DNA of 6,489 nt, from the NCBI GenBank assembly GCA_003648125.1, contig QMOE01000144.1, positions 1 to 6,489 on the forward strand, written 5' to 3'. Within the stretch, counting starts at the first letter, position 1; each line of letters begins with the position of its first letter. The translations under genes and the position numbers were made by a program. Under the pieces are notes generated by a model, which saw only the letters and a list, made by a program, of their open reading frames with translations, did not search any database and was not told where the DNA came from. This DNA comes from Chloroflexota bacterium (GTDB taxonomy: Bacteria > Chloroflexota > Anaerolineae > B4-G1). Positions 1-6,489 of the stretch are shown in pieces.

Positions 1-715
1 AGGACAAGGGATACTCGTTCCGTTTGGCGCGGCTCATCTCCTCCCCCAGCCTCTGCCCAAAGTAGCGGTTGTTGTACACTCCAGTTTCGTCATCAAAAAT
101 GCCCAGGCCCGTCACGCTCTCTACGGGAGTCTGTAGGTATACCGAAAGAAAAGCCAAGCCCACGCCCAACGCCAAGCCAAAGACACCTCCAAGAGCAAGG
201 TTTAGCATCTTGTTAGGTTTTATGGGAAAATTGGGGACTGTAGCCTCATCAAGTGGACTCAGACTGTACATCTCGTACAATTCTTGCACATAAGCCATTG
301 TCTTGACGCCAATCGTGTTGGCGAAATCCCTGACGAGAACAGGATCGTTTCCTTCAACTACGATCTCAAAGACATTTGTACCGGCTCGCAATTTGCTCTC
401 GACCGAAAGACCCTTCCTCTGGCTTTGAGATAAACCCAACTCCTCGCTGGCCTGCCCTCTGATCAGATGGCTGATGGCTACCTCGGTATAAGTAGTCGCA
501 ATCTCAGTCCGCCGGCTCAACATATCTAACCCGCTCGCAAAACTTCTAATGTCCCCAAAAGAGCTAGTGGGAGTAACAACAAAGGTGGCAACTGCCCTAT
601 AGGTAGGCGCTTGAGTGAACGTAAACACAATGGTTGACGTAAACGTAACCAGAAAGACAGGCAGAACAATCCACCATTTTTTCAACAGAATACGCAGGTA
701 GATTTTTAGTTCCAT
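1..715 (-). CDS. Wzz-type chain-length determinant fused to a GGDEF domain start (3' end outside window)
   Basis: The frame reads leftwards from ATG at 715-713 and is still open at base 1, giving 238 complete codons. It shows a short cytoplasmic N-terminus, a first membrane helix (about residues 15-33), a periplasmic or external segment (about 35-168), a proline motif PNFPIKPNK (161-169), and a second Gly-rich helix (about 171-193). This is the layout of polysaccharide co-polymerases (Wzz/FepE), which set polymer chain length beside the Wzy polymerase. After helix 2 the chain does not stop. Residues 207-238 contain FDDETGVYNNRYF, then RLGEEMSRAKR and YPLS, matching the opening of GGDEF domains (DxLTGLxNRRxF, ExxRAxR, PLS). 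The GG[DE]EF signature would lie outside the window, so catalytic activity cannot be judged. Only a weak purine-rich stretch (AAAGAAAAA) precedes the ATG. The start lies 12 nt after the sugar transferase stop, so the two genes are probably one operon. The Wzz part is secure; the GGDEF part is strong but partial. Confidence 0.88.
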   Translation of the reverse strand, partial: MELKIYLRILLKKWWIVLPVFLVTFTSTIVFTFTQAPTYRAVATFVVTPTSSFGDIRSFASGLDMLSRRTEIATTYTEVAISHLIRGQASEELGLSQSQRKGLSVESKLRAGTNVFEIVVEGNDPVLVRDFANTIGVKTMAYVQELYEMYSLSPLDEATVPNFPIKPNKMLNLALGGVFGLALGVGLAFLSVYLQTPVESVTGLGIFDDETGVYNNRYFGQRLGEEMSRAKRNEYPLS

Positions 716-727
716 ATTTTTCTTTAT

Positions 728-1474
728 TTACTCAGCGCCTGTTCCCAAAAGGACTGTGTGGAGAGTCCACCACAATATCTTTAAATCCATTACCAGACTC
801 TGTTTCTCCACATACTCTATATCATATTTTACTATACTATCAAAAGAAATGCCACTCCGCCCTCGAACCTGGGCTAACCCGGTAATCCCCGGCAGCGCTT
901 TCAATCGCTCATAGTGCCAGGGTTGATATTCTTCAACCTCCCACGGCACATTAGGTCTTGGGCCGACCAGGCTCATTTCTCCCTTGAGCACGTTGAATAT
1001 CTGGGGCAGTTCGTCTAGGCTGGTCTTGCGCAGGATGCGTCCCACGTGGGTGACCTGCGAGGTCTGAATAGGTTTGTAAACCTTGCCGTGCCCATTGTTG
1101 TCCAATGCCGCATTTGCAAGAGTTTTCCTAAAGATGCGTCGAAAGTTGTTATTCTGGATACCTTTATCGTTGCCAATTTGGCCGTTCACAAAAGCCTTCA
1201 TAAAGGCGCGGTGGAAACTATTGTCGAGATTGTGTCGCATTGTGCGGAATTTATACATCCGGAAATGATGCCCCTTTTTGCCAACACGCTTTTGGATAAA
1301 GATGGCCGGGCCTGACGAGTCGAGTCGTATGGCCAGCACACAGATAGCCATCAGAGGCAAGGCTACGGGTAGTACCAATAAGCAGAGCATTATGTCTACC
1401 ACTCGCTTGGTGAGTTGATAAGTTCTTTGATAAGATAATACCTGGGGTCTGTTGGTGATCGCTAACTCCATCAT
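728..1474 (-). CDS. Bacterial sugar transferase (polyprenyl-phosphate sugar-1-phosphate transferase, monotopic type)
   Basis: This 248-residue protein should transfer a sugar-1-phosphate from a nucleotide sugar to undecaprenyl phosphate, the first membrane step of exopolysaccharide repeat assembly. It has one hydrophobic segment (about residues 25-50), with the Arg and Asp before it typical of the family (KRVVDIML). Then come [11 protein letters not shown] (55-65), MYKFRTMR (73-80), the catalytic Asp-Glu pair in [24 protein letters not shown] (D154, E155), and the C-terminal [13 protein letters not shown] (195-207). It lacks the extra N-terminal helices and nucleotide-fold domain of WbaP/WcaJ, so it resembles the short catalytic-core form. 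Between residues 101 and 132 lies an Asn/Arg-rich stretch that looks longer than usual for the family. Two adjacent ATGs start it (1474 and 1471); GGGAG at 1483-1479 is 4 nt from the first and 7 nt from the second, so 1471 may be used. The chain-length gene follows 12 nt downstream. Sugar specificity cannot be read from the sequence. Confidence 0.95.
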
Positions 1475-1758
1475 CCTGCTCCCGTGTGAACTATTTGTTT
1501 TACGAGGTCATCCCCTCCACTTTCCCAAGCCCATTCCAAGTAATTCGCCACTTGCGTTGTGCGTGAGAATCTCGTAGGGCAAGGTGTCATCTTGCCCTAT
1601 ATGAGAAAACTCATTATTACATTCTAAAGCACAGCCGTAATGCACAGGTAGTGAAATGATTAAATTTTTCTTAATTCCTCTCACTTGTAGCGCCTCTTTT
1701 TGTCTGTCCCCAATGCGTGACGGTCGCTTTATCCATTTATCCTAAAAAGCGTGTTCTA
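1475..1758. other. Divergent intergenic region, no gene seen
   Basis: This stretch separates the leftward polysaccharide genes from the rightward lipoprotein gene and should hold both promoters. It is more A+T-rich than the right-hand genes. It contains the 9-bp hairpin at 1575-1599 and an A/T-rich patch near 1650-1680. For the leftward genes, the minus strand offers TAGAAT (complement of 1621-1626) as a weak -10 candidate, with no convincing -35. I see no coding frame with a credible start and ribosome site. An open plus frame from GTG 1717 simply runs into the lipoprotein gene and includes its promoter. Confidence 0.5.
1575..1599. repeat. Perfect 9-bp hairpin, REP-like palindrome
   Basis: TAGGGCAAG at 1575-1583 is exactly complementary to CTTGCCCTA at 1591-1599, around the 7-nt loop GTGTCAT. 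No T-run follows on either strand, and the hairpin lies in the 5' region of both flanking genes, so it is not a good intrinsic terminator. It may be a dispersed palindromic element or a leader hairpin of the leftward transcript. Other copies would have to be found elsewhere in the genome to tell these apart. Confidence 0.6.
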
Positions 1759-1767
1759 TGGTATAAT
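1759..1767 (+). promoter_or_regulatory. Extended -10 promoter for the lipoprotein gene
   Basis: The bases TGGTATAAT match the extended -10 consensus TGnTATAAT exactly. No good -35 is visible 16-18 bp upstream, which extended -10 promoters tolerate. Transcription would begin near 1773-1775. That gives a leader of about 30 nt to ATG 1804, which has its own Shine-Dalgarno, and it rules out translation from the upstream GTG at 1717 on this transcript. A near-leaderless start at ATG 1777 is the alternative. Confidence 0.5.
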
Positions 1768-1803
1768 CCACGAGTGATGAATGGAAAACTCTTGAGGTGG
1801 CCG

Positions 1804-2895
1804 ATGCGTTACTTGGTGCTTGTTTCGATTGTCGTTGTCTTGCCGACTGCCTGCGCGCCTCAGCCCGCCCCGACCGTTGTCACGCCCGCGCCGTCGCCCA
1901 CGTTCACGCCGCTGCCTGCTGTGCCTACATCTACGCCCGCGCCTGTCCCCACGACCACGCCAACCCCCGCTCCCACGCTTGACTCGGCCGCCGTCGCTGC
2001 CAACATCGCTGCTGGAGAGGCGCGGCTGGAGGCGCAGGGAATCAAACCGCTCTGTCTGCGCTGGGATGATACCGATGGCGATGGGGAGGCCGAGTGGGTA
2101 GGGTTGTACTTGCAGCCCGGCGAGCCGCCCCAATTGGCGGCCTTTATCCTCGATGGCGACGCCTGGCACGACCTGCGGCCGCTCGAAGATGAAAAGTATG
2201 GCTTGGGCGAGTACCCCACCTGCGAGTTGCAAGTACGCGATGTCAACGCCGATGGGCGGGCCGAAATCCTTGTCTGGGGACACGCTGAGGCCAGTATCGG
2301 GCTGCTGCACATCTTTATCTGGGATGGTGAGAGCTATGCACTGCTGGCTTTTTTCGAGGGGGACGCTGGCGTGCGCCTGGAGGACGCGGACGGCGACCTG
2401 GCGGACGAGATCAGTGTCCGCTACGAGGCCGGGGACGATCTGGTGTGGGAGGCGGTTCACACCTGGGATGGGGCCAACTATGGCTGGACATGGGAGCGAT
2501 ATACCTGGTTCTATCTGGACCGTCCTCACGTCTACCGCACCGACACGCCGGAGCACGCCGTTATCTCCTTCTACCTGGCGGTGGATGACCGCGATCTGCC
2601 AGGGGCTTACGGCTTGCTCGGCCCCGAGTCTCAAGCGGCTACGCCGGCCGACGAGTGGATGACCGGCTTTGCTACCACCGTCGCGGCCGAGGTCGGCGCG
2701 GTACACGAGCTTGGCCGCAGCGGAGATACCGCCACCGTCATCGCCCAGGTGCGGGCCTACGATAACTTGGATGGCCGCGTCATCGCCACGCTGTGGGACG
2801 TCGAGTGGACGGTCGCGCTGACTGCCGGCGGTTGGCGGTTGGAGAGCGCGACGACAGATGAACTTGACCGCTGGGAAGCGGTGTATTATCCGTAG
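1804..2895 (+). CDS. Lipoprotein with Thr/Pro linker, Asp-rich loop domain and NTF2-like tail
   Basis: This is an unnamed surface lipoprotein of 363 residues. Start 1804 is chosen because GAGGTGG (1794-1800) sits just upstream and it gives a compact signal peptide, MRYLVLVSIVVVLPTAC. The lipid-bearing residue would be Cys17. The lipobox is slightly irregular, with Pro at -3 and Leu at -4. A Pro/Thr/Ala-rich linker spans about residues 18-60. The next domain carries three Asp-rich loops: DTDGDGEAE (89-97), DVNADGRAE (146-154) and DADGDLADE (194-202). These resemble calcium-binding loops of VCBS/FG-GAP-type repeats. Residues about 247-363 (HAVISFYLAVDDRD onward, ending in a Trp-rich strand) look like an NTF2/SnoaL-type alpha-beta fold; this is inferred from pattern only. 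The stop TAG at 2893 directly abuts the GTG of the membrane glycosyltransferase gene, so the two are probably co-translated. ATG 1777 and GTG 1717 are alternative in-frame starts. Function unknown; binding or scaffolding at the cell surface is plausible. Confidence 0.82.
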   Translation: MRYLVLVSIVVVLPTACAPQPAPTVVTPAPSPTFTPLPAVPTSTPAPVPTTTPTPAPTLDSAAVAANIAAGEARLEAQGIKPLCLRWDDTDGDGEAEWVGLYLQPGEPPQLAAFILDGDAWHDLRPLEDEKYGLGEYPTCELQVRDVNADGRAEILVWGHAEASIGLLHIFIWDGESYALLAFFEGDAGVRLEDADGDLADEISVRYEAGDDLVWEAVHTWDGANYGWTWERYTWFYLDRPHVYRTDTPEHAVISFYLAVDDRDLPGAYGLLGPESQAATPADEWMTGFATTVAAEVGAVHELGRSGDTATVIAQVRAYDNLDGRVIATLWDVEWTVALTAGGWRLESATTDELDRWEAVYYP

Positions 2896-4929
2896 GTGCA
2901 AGAGACAGAAGGCAAGATGCAAGAGGCAGGAGGCAAGTGGCAAGAATACCGTTTTGTCCTGATTGGCCTGCTGGCGCTGGCGGTCGTCGCCGTGTTCGCT
3001 TACGGGCCTGGACTGGGTCTCCCCTTTTACTCTGACGACATGTACCACTTTCGCTGGGTCGAGACCCACGACGCGGCCGAGTTGCTGCTGCCCTCTGATT
3101 CCTTCGCCAGTTATCGCCCCTTGCCCTCCCTCGTTTGGTACCTGTGGCGGCACACGGTTGGCTTTTACAGCCCGGCCGGGTTTTACGCGCTCAACTTGCT
3201 CCTCCACATTGCCAACGGCTGGCTGGTGGTCGCGCTGGTCCTTCGGCTCTGCTCAGGACAAGCCCTGCGGCTGAGTCGGCGGAAATGGGTTTCCTGGGCG
3301 GCGGGGCTCGTTTTCATCCTGTATCCCTTTTCCTACCAGGTGGTGCTTTGGGTGGGGGCGCTGACTCATCTACTGGGCGCTTTTTTGATTCTGCTATCGC
3401 TGCTCTTTTATGACCGGGGGCGGCGCGGGGCTTGGGGCTGGATGGTCGCTTCCTGGCTGGTCGGGTTGCTGGCCCCTTTCGCCAACGAGGCCGGGTTGAC
3501 TGTGATCGGACTGCTGCTGCTCTACGAATGGGTGCTTCCCAGGGCGGCCGCAAGGGGGAGGATGACCGTGATTGCAAGGGTCGCCCCTATGTTGGTTGGC
3601 CCGATTCTCTACCAGGCGGTCTGGCTGGACTGGGGGGCGAGAGGCCCGGCGGGGTTGTTGGGGAACCTGGGGCGGACGGAGCAATTGCTTCAAAAGACGA
3701 CCTTCTTGGCCCAGGGCGTGACCTTTCCGTTCCAATTTGTCACTGCCTGGCTTGCTGACTCGTGGGGTTGGAGCGTGGGGCGAGCGGTGGGCTGGGGCGT
3801 GATTCTTTCCCTGGTCGTGCTGGGGCTGGCCTACGCCCGGTCTGGATGGCGGCGATTGGGGCTGGCCTGTGGCTGGGTGGCGCTGACCGCGCTGCCGCCG
3901 CTGGTCGCGCTTTCGGCGGCCTACGTGGACACCGCGCCCCGGCTTTTGTACATCCCTTCGGTTGGCGTGGCCCTTCTGTGGGGTGGGGCGCTGGCGGGGC
4001 TGCTGCCCTCCCGTAGGCGCGGTTTCTATACCGCGCAGGCTACAAGTTCGTGCTCTAAAATGTTGTGGGCAGTGGCGCTGGCACTGATCCTGTTGCCCAG
4101 TCTGCTCTTTTTGCGCCAGCGGACGGCGCTCTTTGATCTGGTCGCTCGTCCGGCGCGGCAGGCGCTTGAGGCGAGTCAATCGTCGCCCGACGATGCGCTC
4201 CTCTTTGTCAACTTGCCCGCCTGGGCCGCTTACAAGGAGCATACTTTTCCCGTCAGCACAGAGGGAGTGGCTTTTCTGCCTGACTATGTCGGCATGGCCG
4301 ATTTTGTCTGGGCCAACACCGGCCTCGAGGCGAGCGCGCAGGCGGTGACGTTCGCCAATATCCAGCAGGATCGGCCTTATTGGTACGGCCCGTGGGGCGA
4401 GGCGCGGGATTGGGAATCGCTGGATCGGGCGATTCGGGCTGCGGAGCGGGTCTATGTGACGCTGTACGGGGAGGAGGAGATACGATTGGTCGAGGCGGGC
4501 AGCGTGGGCGGGGTTGCGCCGGCCTCTCGACTTCTGGCGCGTTTCGAGGGCGGCCTCAATCTCCTCGCTGCCCAGGCCGCGCTTGAGCAGGACGGCCTGA
4601 CCGCCGTGTTGGTCTGGTCGGCTGACAAACATCCAGATATTGGGGATGCGGTCTTTGCCCAGTTGTTCGATGGGCAGGGGCAACTGGTGGGCCAGGCGGA
4701 TGGGCTGCCGCTGGCGAATATGTTTCCTTTCTGGCTCTGCCAGGCCGGGGACGTGGTGCGCGACGCGCGTTGGTTCCCCGCGCCGGGTGGGCTGCCGCCG
4801 GGGGAATACGTCCTGCGGGTGGGACTGTACGACACCGGCAGTGGCACGCGCCGCCCAGTGTGGGACGAGGCTGGAGCGCGTTTCCCCGACGACGTGGTGA
4901 CTGCTTTGAGGCTCGATGTGGGCCGGTAG
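2896..4929 (+). CDS. GT-C superfamily membrane glycosyltransferase-like protein (TMTC/GT39-like)
   Basis: This 677-residue protein has about 10-12 membrane helices between residues 18 and 405, then a soluble C-terminal part. Family signs are YSDDMYHF (45-52), an acidic pair in the first external loop where GT-C enzymes keep their catalytic Asp; YRPLPSLVWYLW (73-84); LNLLLHIANGWLV (99-111); FANEAGLTVIGLLLLYEW (195-212), like the KE(T/S)A motif of TMTC-type enzymes; and APRLLYIPSVGVALL (347-361). Such enzymes move sugars from polyprenyl-phosphate donors outside the membrane. The tail (about 565-677) has a beta-rich pattern with FAQLFDGQGQLVGQADG, LPPGEYVLRVGLYD and a final LDVGR. The start is uncertain: GTG 2896 abuts the upstream stop, whereas ATG 2917 has AGAAGG 4 nt before it. 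Both lie in or beside a heptanucleotide repeat. Two repeat-like DNA segments sit in-frame, encoding residues about 116-127 and 373-383. Donor and acceptor are unknown. No downstream terminator is evident. Confidence 0.85.
   Translation: MQETEGKMQEAGGKWQEYRFVLIGLLALAVVAVFAYGPGLGLPFYSDDMYHFRWVETHDAAELLLPSDSFASYRPLPSLVWYLWRHTVGFYSPAGFYALNLLLHIANGWLVVALVLRLCSGQALRLSRRKWVSWAAGLVFILYPFSYQVVLWVGALTHLLGAFLILLSLLFYDRGRRGAWGWMVASWLVGLLAPFANEAGLTVIGLLLLYEWVLPRAAARGRMTVIARVAPMLVGPILYQAVWLDWGARGPAGLLGNLGRTEQLLQKTTFLAQGVTFPFQFVTAWLADSWGWSVGRAVGWGVILSLVVLGLAYARSGWRRLGLACGWVALTALPPLVALSAAYVDTAPRLLYIPSVGVALLWGGALAGLLPSRRRGFYTAQATSSCSKMLWAVALALILLPSLLFLRQRTALFDLVARPARQALEASQSSPDDALLFVNLPAWAAYKEHTFPVSTEGVAFLPDYVGMADFVWANTGLEASAQAVTFANIQQDRPYWYGPWGEARDWESLDRAIRAAERVYVTLYGEEEIRLVEAGSVGGVAPASRLLARFEGGLNLLAAQAALEQDGLTAVLVWSADKHPDIGDAVFAQLFDGQGQLVGQADGLPLANMFPFWLCQAGDVVRDARWFPAPGGLPPGEYVLRVGLYDTGSGTRRPVWDEAGARFPDDVVTALRLDVGR
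2898..2946 (+). repeat. Heptanucleotide tandem repeat, seven degenerate copies of GCAAGAG
   Basis: The 49 bases divide exactly into seven 7-mers: GCAAGAG, ACAGAAG, GCAAGAT, GCAAGAG, GCAGGAG, GCAAGTG and GCAAGAA. The array begins on the last base of the candidate GTG start and contains the alternative ATG (2917). It encodes the hydrophilic N-terminus of the glycosyltransferase-like protein (residues 1-17). Because 7 is not a multiple of 3, gain or loss of a copy after the start would shift the frame. The copies differ from each other, which should reduce slippage. Confidence 0.85.
3241..3275 (+). repeat. Candidate dispersed repeat lying in-frame in the GT-C gene
   Basis: The segment starting CTTCGGCTCTGCTCAGGACA and ending CTGAG encodes the peptide around LRLCSGQALRLS in a hydrophilic loop between membrane helices. 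It contains CTCAG (3252-3256) and its complement CTGAG (3271-3275). I recognise the 'TCAGGACAAGC' word and the 'SGQALRL' peptide as a recurrent repeat seen in metagenomic bacterial genomes. That is recollection, not a search result. It does not disrupt the frame. Confidence 0.4.
4013..4043 (+). repeat. REP-like palindrome in-frame within the GT-C gene
   Basis: GCGCGGT (4017-4023) pairs perfectly with ACCGCGC (4030-4036) around the loop TTCTAT. The outer words GTAG (4013-4016) and CTAC (4040-4043) also pair, with a 3-base bulge AGG on the right. In the protein this encodes RRRGFYTAQAT, a polar loop (about residues 373-383) between two hydrophobic helices. The palindrome is unusual for coding DNA and is consistent with an inserted dispersed element that kept the frame. 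Confidence 0.6.
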
Positions 4930-4951
4930 TTGTGAGCGGGGGCGGATGCTG

Positions 4952-4957
4952 TATAAT
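4952..4957 (+). promoter_or_regulatory. TATAAT box without an obvious gene
   Basis: A perfect TATAAT lies 22 bp after the glycosyltransferase stop, preceded by TG with no spacer base, and no clear -35 is seen. Transcripts would begin near 4964 and run into the palindromic element and the possible gene remnant. It may be the orphaned promoter of a gene now lost. Confidence 0.3.
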
Positions 4958-4972
4958 ATGTTAGATACAAGT

Positions 4973-4986
4973 AACTGCTCAGCCTG
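4973..4986 (+). repeat. 14-bp inverted repeat word, left copy
   Basis: AACTGCTCAGCCTG is the exact inverted partner of 5373-5386. It runs directly into the GTCATTGCGAGG end of the decayed palindrome, so the word may be part of, or a boundary for, that element. Confidence 0.6.
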
Positions 4987-5077
4987 TCATTGCGAGGAGC
5001 GGCAGCGACGAAGCAATCCCCACGCTGCTTGCATTTGAAAGCGGGAGATTGCTTCGCTATGCTTGCAATACTCTTGT
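4986..5077. repeat. Decayed dispersed palindromic element
   Basis: The left half begins GTCATTGCGAGGAGCG, and GAAGCAATC at 5010-5018 pairs exactly with GATTGCTTC at 5047-5055. Further out, ATTGCGA (4989-4995) matches TTGCAAT (5063-5069) with one mismatch. So the outer arms are still recognisable but eroded, while the inner 9-bp arms are intact. The words GTCATTGCGAGGAGC and GAAGCAATCCC are familiar to me from dispersed repeats in environmental bacterial genomes; this is recollection only. Confidence 0.65.
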
Positions 5078-5210
5078 AGAAGCATATTCCGCCGAAGATG
5101 ATGCTACAATACGAGAGCAATTCTTACGGGACGCTATGAATTTCGACTATGACGAAACAGGTGTTTTTGAAGTCAAAAAACGCCGACTTGGCAACTACTC
5201 AGGCCAATGA
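5049..5210 (+). pseudogene. Possible 3' remnant of an unidentified gene
   Basis: One frame stays open from 4965 to the stop TGA at 5208-5210. Its last 50 or so codons read like a real soluble protein: LVEAYSAEDDATIREQFLRD, then AMNFDYDETGVFEVKKRRLG. The only starts are TTG 5049, inside the right arm of the palindrome, and ATG 5136, which leaves 24 residues. Neither has a clear Shine-Dalgarno. The pattern fits the C-terminal end of a gene whose 5' part was lost or replaced by the palindromic element. The final codons also overlap a repeated word (5190-5206). I do not recognise the family, and chance openness is possible. Confidence 0.25.
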
Positions 5211-5215
5211 AGCGG

Positions 5216-5263
5216 GCGCTGGTTGAGTAGCCGCCACGCTTTTTGTGGCGGCGTATCGAAACC
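5216..5263 (-). repeat. REP-like palindromic unit, copy 1
   Basis: GCCGCCAC (5230-5237) pairs perfectly with GTGGCGGC (5245-5252) around loop GCTTTTT. The flanks GCGCTGGTTGAGTAG (5216-5230) and CGTATCGAAACC (5252-5263) match those of copy 2 on the opposite strand, with only transition differences. The hairpin core is longer and different in sequence. No T-run follows the stem, so it is not a standard terminator. Confidence 0.75.
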
Positions 5264-5335
5264 CTTGTACAGAGTCTGTCAAAGTGAAGCGAGCGGCTTT
5301 TGCAATGGATTTTGCCCTACCTGGGCCGCCTGCTT

Positions 5336-5373
5336 GGTCTCGATATGTGCCTCCGGCACTACTCGACCGGCGC
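5336..5373 (+). repeat. REP-like palindromic unit, copy 2 (inverted)
   Basis: GTGCC (5347-5351) pairs with GGCAC (5355-5359) around a 3-nt loop. The left flank GGTCTCGATATG and right flank TACTCGACCGGCGC are the reverse complement of copy 1 flanks at about 23 of 27 positions, every difference being a transition. Seventy-two bases separate the two units, giving a composite like the paired REP arrangements known from other bacteria. Confidence 0.75.
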
Positions 5374-5386
5374 AGGCTGAGCAGTT
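5373..5386 (-). repeat. 14-bp inverted repeat word, right copy
   Basis: CAGGCTGAGCAGTT here is the exact reverse complement of AACTGCTCAGCCTG at 4973-4986. The two copies bracket the whole repeat mosaic, 414 bp end to end. A third, diverged form, GCAACTACTCAGGCC, lies at 5191-5205 on the plus strand. No flanking target duplication is visible. Confidence 0.6.
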
Positions 5387-5485
5387 GCCGAGAATTTGTA
5401 AACAAGTTTTTCGGCTCTGATGAACCATGCCCAAAATTGGGATGGAGTCAATACAGCCACTGGGCACTTGACCCTGTGCTGATTC

Positions 5486-5513
5486 TTGGAATCACCCACA
5501 AGTAGGTTATACA
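5486..5513 (+). promoter_or_regulatory. Candidate sigma70-type promoter for hflX
   Basis: TTGGAA (5486-5491) and TATACA (5508-5513) are separated by 16 bp, each matching consensus at 4 of 6 positions. Transcription would start near 5520, so the 67-nt hairpin at 5515-5581 would form the very 5' end of the hflX mRNA. The match is moderate and could be chance. Confidence 0.3.
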
Positions 5514-5514
5514 G

Positions 5515-5581
5515 GCTCTGGGATTTCGCAGGGTTGAGCCGTTCGGGAGTCCAACATCCTGACCCCGCGAAATCACAGAGC
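5515..5581 (+). repeat. Long inverted repeat in the hflX leader
   Basis: GCTCTGGGATTTCGC (5515-5529) pairs with GCGAAATCACAGAGC (5567-5581) over 15 positions with one mismatch. After a 1x1 mismatch the stem continues as GGGT (5531-5534) with ACCC (5562-5565), making about 20 paired positions and a loop of roughly 25 nt. No T-run follows. It ends 17 nt before the Shine-Dalgarno of hflX, so it could act as a leader structure or simply be another dispersed palindrome. Confidence 0.7.
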
Positions 5582-5598
5582 TTGCCTGATAAAAGTAT

Positions 5599-5604
5599 AG
5601 GAGG
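5599..5604 (+). promoter_or_regulatory. Perfect Shine-Dalgarno AGGAGG that points to an ATC start
   Basis: AGGAGG is followed after 6 nt (CCCAAA) by ATC at 5611-5613, in frame with the HflX protein. A stop codon (TAA, 5590-5592) closes the frame just upstream, and no ATG, GTG or TTG lies within range. The spacing is what one expects if ATC, or a mutated ATG, is the initiation codon. Confidence 0.65.
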
Positions 5605-5610
5605 CCCAAA

Positions 5611-6489
5611 ATCGCCAGACCAACCGAACCGACCGGTCCCCCCCAGGAGCGAGCTTTTCTGGTGGGGGTGGGAATGAAAGGGCCAGCGGCCCGCGCGCCG
5701 GCCGGATACTGGCCCGTCGAGGAATCGCTGGCCGAACTGGCGCAGCTGGCCCGCACCGCCGGCATCGGCGTGGTGGGACAGTTGGTGCAGCGGCTGGAGC
5801 GACCCAATCCGGCCACCTTTATCGGCCCCGGCAAGGTGGGGGAACTGGTGGAGCAGGTGGCCCAGGCCGCTGCCGATGTGGTCATCTTTGACGACGAACT
5901 CTCGCCGCGCCACCAGCGAGAACTGGAAAAATCGCTGGGCGAGAAGGTCAAACTGCTCGACCGTACCGCGCTGATCCTCGACATCTTTGCCCAGCACGCC
6001 CACACCCGCGAGGGGGCGCTGCAAGTGGAACTGGCCCAGTACGAGTACCGCCTGCCCCGGCTGACGCGAGCCTGGACTCACCTGGCGCGGCAGGCCGGCG
6101 GGCGGGCCGGCGGGATCACCGGCGGAGTCGGCGTGCGCGGGCCGGGCGAGACCCAGTTGGAGACCGACCGGCGTGTGATCGGGCGGCGCATCTCCCAGAT
6201 CAAGCGGGAGTTGGAAAAGGTGCGCGCTCACCGGGGCCGCCACCGCGCTCGACGTCGTCAGAAGGGTGTCCCGGTCGTCTCCATTGTTGGCTATACCAAC
6301 GCTGGCAAGTCCACCCTCCTCAACGCTCTATCCGGCGCCGATGTGCTGGTCGCAGACAAGCTCTTTGCTACGCTCGACCCGACCACCCGCCGGGTCGAAC
6401 TGCCCGGCGGGGGTATGGTTCTCTTTACCGATACAGTCGGCTTTATCCAGAAACTGCCCACACAATTGGTGGCTGCCTTCCGCGCTACC
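5611..6489 (+). CDS. hflX: HflX ribosome-associated GTPase, 5' part (3' end outside window)
   Basis: HflX is a translational GTPase-family protein that binds the 50S subunit and splits or rescues stalled ribosomes under stress. Diagnostic segments are [64 protein letters not shown] and [18 protein letters not shown] in the N-terminal HflX domain. The G domain shows GYTNAGKST (G1), ATLDPTTR (G2) and [10 protein letters not shown] (G3). The window ends before G4 and G5. Start choice: homologues usually open with a strand like ERAFLVGV before the first conserved helix. Here [10 protein letters not shown] is encoded at 5644-5673, upstream of the first in-frame ATG (5674). The perfect AGGAGG points to ATC 5611, giving (I/M)[19 protein letters not shown]. 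Canonical alternatives are GTG 5662, GTG 5668 and ATG 5674, all of which trim this strand. The seven-C run at 5638-5644 is a possible sequencing-error site. Product identity is very sure; the start is not. Confidence 0.95.

Follow-up and report, generated by a model that had tools for sequence, protein, structure and literature searches.

The window analysed here is a stretch of 6489 nucleotides from a Chloroflexota bacterium (contig QMOE01000144.1, positions 1 to 6489 of the forward strand), and the gene at its left edge raises a question: is this a Wzz-type chain-length determinant fused to a GGDEF domain, the domain of diguanylate cyclases, as a first-pass annotation had proposed, and what could such a domain do on a polysaccharide co-polymerase (PCP)? 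The part of the gene inside the window (2..715, reverse strand) encodes residues 1–238 of 375, and its frame stays open up to the edge, where the gene leaves the window. Against Pfam, this part matches Wzz (PF02706, residues 2–93; E = 1.3e-5, 25.9 bits for a cut-off of 25.5) and GNVR (residues 155–190; 9.9e-7, 29.0 bits for a cut-off of 27.7), both just above the cut-off. Its last 30 residues score below the cut-off for GGDEF (E = 0.11), because the window edge cuts the domain. A full-length version of the protein (P0001, 375 residues) is identical to the window at 238/238 residues and carries the Wzz-type part together with a complete GGDEF domain (PF00990, residues 207–361, 4.6e-27), so that the proposed fusion is borne out; neither a stop, nor a frame break, nor a missing GGDEF match occurs past the edge. 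An assembly artefact or a frame break beyond the window is ruled out by this identity over 238 residues and by independent homologues sharing the architecture.

Along the reverse strand, the gene encodes a putative first membrane helix (residues 14–34, 614..676), an extracytoplasmic Wzz/GNVR part (residues 35–168, 212..613), a putative second membrane helix (residues 169–195, 131..211) and the start of the GGDEF domain as delimited by Pfam (residues 207–238, 2..97). The two long helices that flank the extracytoplasmic part are those of an AlphaFold2 model, with no dedicated membrane-helix predictor behind them; their placement in the membrane is inferred, for the first from hydrophobicity and family, and the topology of the part between them likewise follows the family. 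The fold comparison shows a GGDEF fold in the C-terminal domain; all of the matches listed fell on this part, and the fold of the PCP part therefore carries no claim. Solved chains named ‘Ammonium transporter’ (PDB entries 8qj3, 8qj4 and 8qpf) also match the GGDEF part, close to their own C-terminal end, and are a further example of the domain on a membrane transport protein. The domain follows the second predicted membrane helix, where Wzc-type proteins have their tyrosine kinase, and the gene directly upstream on the same strand, 12 bases away, encodes an initiating sugar transferase (728..1474, PF02397, 5.7e-61); the first-pass annotation was right on both counts.

Is the domain still a cyclase? 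The relevant residues, the RxxD inhibitory site (I-site; 275–278) and the former GGDEF motif (284–288), lie beyond the window and were read from P0001. Arg229 and Lys306 align with PleD positions 313 and 390, which we take to be further I-site residues, position 390 presumably being the equivalent of PelD Arg402, the third basic residue of the site. Arg275 and Asp278 align without gaps with PleD 359 and 362 (2wb4 numbering) and stand nine and six residues ahead of the former motif, the same spacing as PMC2170427 gives for the I-site. Among 122 full-length homologues the GG[DE]EF signature is found in none (0/122), and RxxD is kept in 116/122. In a set of 118 full-length homologues the former motif is degenerate, with Asn at the metal-aspartate position in 94 and Asp in 15. 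Judged by these residues, the C-terminal domain has lost the cyclase active site.

We then compared a diverse set of 27 fusions, 25–66% identical to P0001, with canonical cyclases. The set comprises 20 of the 24 distinct full fusion loci and seven of the 122 full-length homologues; it leaves out four near copies, the cut locus L004 and the frame-broken locus L007, and none of its seven homologues is among the six that lack RxxD. PF02706 and PF00990 are both present in 27/27, and GNVR (PF13807) in 15 (E 0.001). The canonical comparison consists of 39 different GGDEF domains (44 rows), taken from the fusion genomes and from two others, G406 and G407, whose PCP either has no GGDEF domain or has a broken frame. 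The active-site residues Asp, Asn and Asp and GG[DE]E are present in 39/39 of the canonical domains and RxxD in 35/39, whereas in the fusions Asp at the PleD 327 position and Glu at 371 are each found in 0/27, and both Arg and Asp of RxxD in 27/27. The only domain columns invariant across the 27 fusions are Asp208, Arg275, Asp278 and Phe288; that both I-site columns are among four invariant columns of 165 has a chance probability of 0.0004, a calculation which treats all columns alike and serves as a guide only. In terms of residue conservation, the inhibitory site has been selectively retained while the cyclase residues decayed, the reverse of the pattern in the canonical domains. An active diguanylate cyclase on the co-polymerase is accordingly hardly credible: the GGDEF fold and database names such as ‘diguanylate cyclase’ speak for it, against a signature lost from all 122 full-length homologues and against the residues missing at PleD 327 and 371. 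The first-pass annotation had left the domain as active, degenerate or binding-only, and had spoken of cyclic di-GMP (c-di-GMP) production or sensing. The ‘active’ option and production fall with the missing signature; the degenerate or binding-only options stand, with sensing inferred from residue conservation and homology.

What, then, might a dead GGDEF domain do on a co-polymerase? PleD binds c-di-GMP at the RxxD site, and so do PelD and BcsE through their degenerate GGDEF domains (PMC8461298, PMC7112168); c-di-GMP reception is therefore the likeliest role. PCP-2 function is modelled (PMC12004946) as cycles of octamer assembly that kinase phosphorylation drives, and PCP assembly is therefore what the domain most probably affects. 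We thus consider it fairly probable, on the strength of the residue pattern, that the protein is a Wzx/Wzy-type co-polymerase whose dead cytoplasmic GGDEF domain works as a PelD-like c-di-GMP receptor in the kinase's place. The two-helix PCP part would sit in the membrane and, as in its family, help the polymerase to set chain length, with the pseudo-cyclase occupying the position of the PCP-2a tyrosine kinase. c-di-GMP would bridge adjacent domains at RxxD, and this bridging would favour or block assembly of the PCP ring, substituting for phosphorylation by the kinase. Some of the same clusters also encode a second membrane protein with a dead GGDEF domain, which may be a partner of the fusion.

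Several observations count against such a receptor. RxxD is also present in the 35/39 ordinary cyclases, so its presence alone is not special, and Asp278 may be structural; mere inheritance of the motif is nevertheless weakened as an explanation by the decay of the active-site residues in the same proteins. Six of the 122 homologues lack RxxD (Arg replaced by His in four and by Gln in one, and the stretch deleted in one), and one of those with His also has Glu for Asp. The third I-site residue is Lys306 in P0001, not Arg; Arg (14) or Lys (4) occupies this position in 18/27 diverse fusions. The sole Actinomycetota fusion found (L133, about 9559–10779, reverse strand) has Glu for the I-site Arg and the motif GGGRF. 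As for the signalling background, GGDEF matches of E 1e-44 or better occur in 18/20 fusion genomes, but no canonical cyclase was found in the remaining G001 and G002, where the GGDEF matches other than the fusion are weak, degenerate paralogues, although these bins may be incomplete. By identity these genomes rank second and third in closeness to the window, behind G405, in which one canonical cyclase is present. In the four genomes searched for EAL, the domain is present in G003 and G004 and was not found in G001 or G002; PilZ is present in 10/20 fusion genomes and was not found in G001–G004, its absence from G001 and G002 again telling against a receptor. The missing canonical cyclases are the main weakness of a c-di-GMP reading for the window's clade. 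The same three genomes (G001, G002 and G405) also encode proteins of about 300 residues that begin like a receiver domain and contain a degenerate GGDEF part (L108–L111, L119, L122 and L125).

The two genomes that keep RxxD in the fusion yet show no canonical cyclase lend some support to a different role, in which the dead domain binds no ligand and serves as a scaffold, dimerising or packing the PCP ring, with RxxD kept for folding or protein contact. There is a precedent in phosphorylation-independent PCPs, the pseudokinase EcpK having been proposed to play such a part for the kinase-less EpsV (PMC12004946), and cyclase-poor homologues and the Arg-to-Glu change in the Actinomycetota fusion point the same way. 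However, the Arg is in general dispensable for such a fold, since it is lost in the companion proteins of L001 and L002 described below and absent from the degenerate paralogues L109 and L111, and a scaffold sits badly with an Arg and an Asp that are near-invariant while other conserved cyclase residues decay. We regard a scaffold as rather unlikely, though it deserves to be kept in view. The lack of canonical cyclases in G001 and G002, together with the remodelled active-site pocket, could also mean that the domain binds another ligand, for instance a nucleotide other than c-di-GMP, either in this altered pocket or at the former I-site; with both the spacing and the residues of the c-di-GMP I-site preserved, this seems improbable.

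The second dead GGDEF protein mentioned above is a candidate partner of the fusion. This companion has about 290 residues, with long helices predicted at its N-terminal end and a GGDEF domain that is dead and, in the two members examined, falls short of the Pfam cut-off; its model (predicted local distance difference test score, pLDDT, 87.2) resembles GGDEF structures. Among 120 listed homologues (138 found), the Arg is present in 119, the Asp in 119 and GG[DE]EF in none. The gene, which lies in clusters of the Wzx/Wzy type, is found at 13034–13909 (reverse strand) in L067 and also in L001, L002, L058, L059, L066, L069, L070 and L071; the last two have it beside a PCP without a GGDEF domain. 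Seven fusion loci contain it, with the Arg kept in five and lost in L001 and L002. In a quick tree, in which all branches are long, the fused domains separate with a Shimodaira–Hasegawa-like approximate likelihood-ratio test (SH-aLRT) support of 86, and the fusions, the companion and L133 group together at 95; L090, L091 and L116, which are themselves fusions although listed as other dead domains, and L129/L130, which are one gene, were excluded. The L067 companion is 98% identical to a protein named from Herpetosiphon sp. NSE202, and this culturable genus probably offers a test.

How widespread is the fusion? The 238 window residues retrieve 370 proteins at E ≤ 1e-3, and 118 of the 120 listed carry PF00990, the remaining two being fragments of 239–240 residues. 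In Chloroflexota, 20/400 genomes match across the PCP and GGDEF parts together, a lower bound, since at most four candidates per genome were scored; the count includes the centre genome, G001, and six near-identical sequences (loci L039–L041 and L043–L045). Searches of three other phyla with the diverse set (E ≤ 1e-30, up to nine candidates scored, six in one of them) gave 1/198 genomes in Actinomycetota, confirmed from its reading frame, 0/199 in Bacillota and 0/299 in Pseudomonadota. No relatives were found among viral contigs, where 60 pattern matches were all unrelated. The fusion is thus found mainly in Chloroflexota. PCPs without a GGDEF domain also exist (L009, L070 and L071), and no domain remnant was seen downstream of L009 in the three forward frames. 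In L007 (10001–11141), a related fusion gene is interrupted by several stops in a genome bin; sequencing errors are likely, because the neighbouring genes also look broken.

The first-pass annotation had also suggested a search for the same sugar transferase neighbour, and this gene is present in 10 of the 21 fusion loci outside the window. Counted as presence anywhere in the fetched stretch, some stretches being short (clusters by BLAST, representatives named by Pfam), the same loci contain Wzy_C-like genes in 16, Wzx in 15, BcsB-like genes in 15, GT4 in 14, GT2 in eight and the companion in seven. The BcsB-like gene directly follows the fusion in 10/21 loci, including L004, which at 73% identity is the closest relative that the genome set contains. 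It encodes a protein of about 900 residues (PF03170; for example, L001 11155–13851, forward strand) of a cellulose-system family, unexpected in a Wzx/Wzy-type cluster. No tyrosine kinase was found beside any fusion in the 21 loci, although short contigs could hide one just past their end. Bacterial tyrosine kinases (BY-kinases) give 26 matches over the cut-off in 16/21 fusion genomes; 25 of these matches lie on contigs other than that of the fusion, and the remaining one is 1.3 Mb distant from it.

Elsewhere in the window, the forward strand holds a proline-rich, lipoprotein-like open reading frame (1717–2895; weak FG-GAP matches below the cut-off), a hydrophobic open reading frame of 677 residues (2896–4929) that matches nothing in Pfam up to E 1 or in NCBIfam up to 0.01, and an HflX GTPase gene that the window edge truncates (5662–6489; TIGR03156, 2.5e-109). 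A perfect 14-base inverted repeat has its arms, 386 bases apart, at 4973–4986 and 5373–5386. Near it lies the 14-mer TCATTGCGAGGAGC, which occurs once more among the 133 loci, in L125, and is perhaps an interspersed repeat.

Direct control by c-di-GMP has been described for Pel and for synthase-type polysaccharides (PMC8461298, PMC12220298), whereas PCP-2 co-polymerases are described as being controlled by tyrosine kinases or by pseudokinases (PMC12220298, PMC12004946). With an I-site-bearing domain of its own, a co-polymerase would unite both kinds of control in a single protein. We tentatively suggest a further PCP class, largely of Chloroflexota, whose switch for Wzx/Wzy chain assembly is not tyrosine phosphorylation but the binding of c-di-GMP by a fused pseudo-cyclase, perhaps in a pair with the companion. 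Among the matching papers listed in literature searches outside subscription journals and preprints, none described the fusion.

Among the known systems, PelD, which belongs to the Pel system, combines a GAF domain with four membrane helices, whereas the fusion is probably of the two-helix Wzz type and stands in a Wzx/Wzy-type cluster; neither P0001 nor any of the 27 diverse-set members matches GAF. PelD is not among the structure and fold matches listed for the fusion, which shows nothing either way. BcsE, like the fusion, has a degenerate GGDEF domain that keeps its I-site and belongs to a polysaccharide machine (PMC8461298), but it is a soluble protein that serves the cellulose system, with no co-polymerase attached. 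Wzc (PCP-2a) and CapA/CapB (PCP-2b) are two-helix Wzz-type co-polymerases with a cytoplasmic C-terminal regulatory part (PMC12004946), a layout that is also predicted for the fusion. There, regulation falls to a tyrosine kinase that is either fused or separate; here, the corresponding part is a dead GGDEF domain with no kinase found alongside. EpsV with its pseudokinase EcpK is likewise a PCP-2 that works with a catalytically dead partner domain (PMC12004946). The EcpK partner, however, is a separate kinase fold, and here the partner is a fused cyclase fold. Alg44, which we take to belong to a different protein family, has a PilZ domain and acts in alginate synthesis. What it shares with the fusion is a c-di-GMP receptor domain on a co-polymerase (PMC8461298), a role that is predicted here for the pseudo-cyclase.
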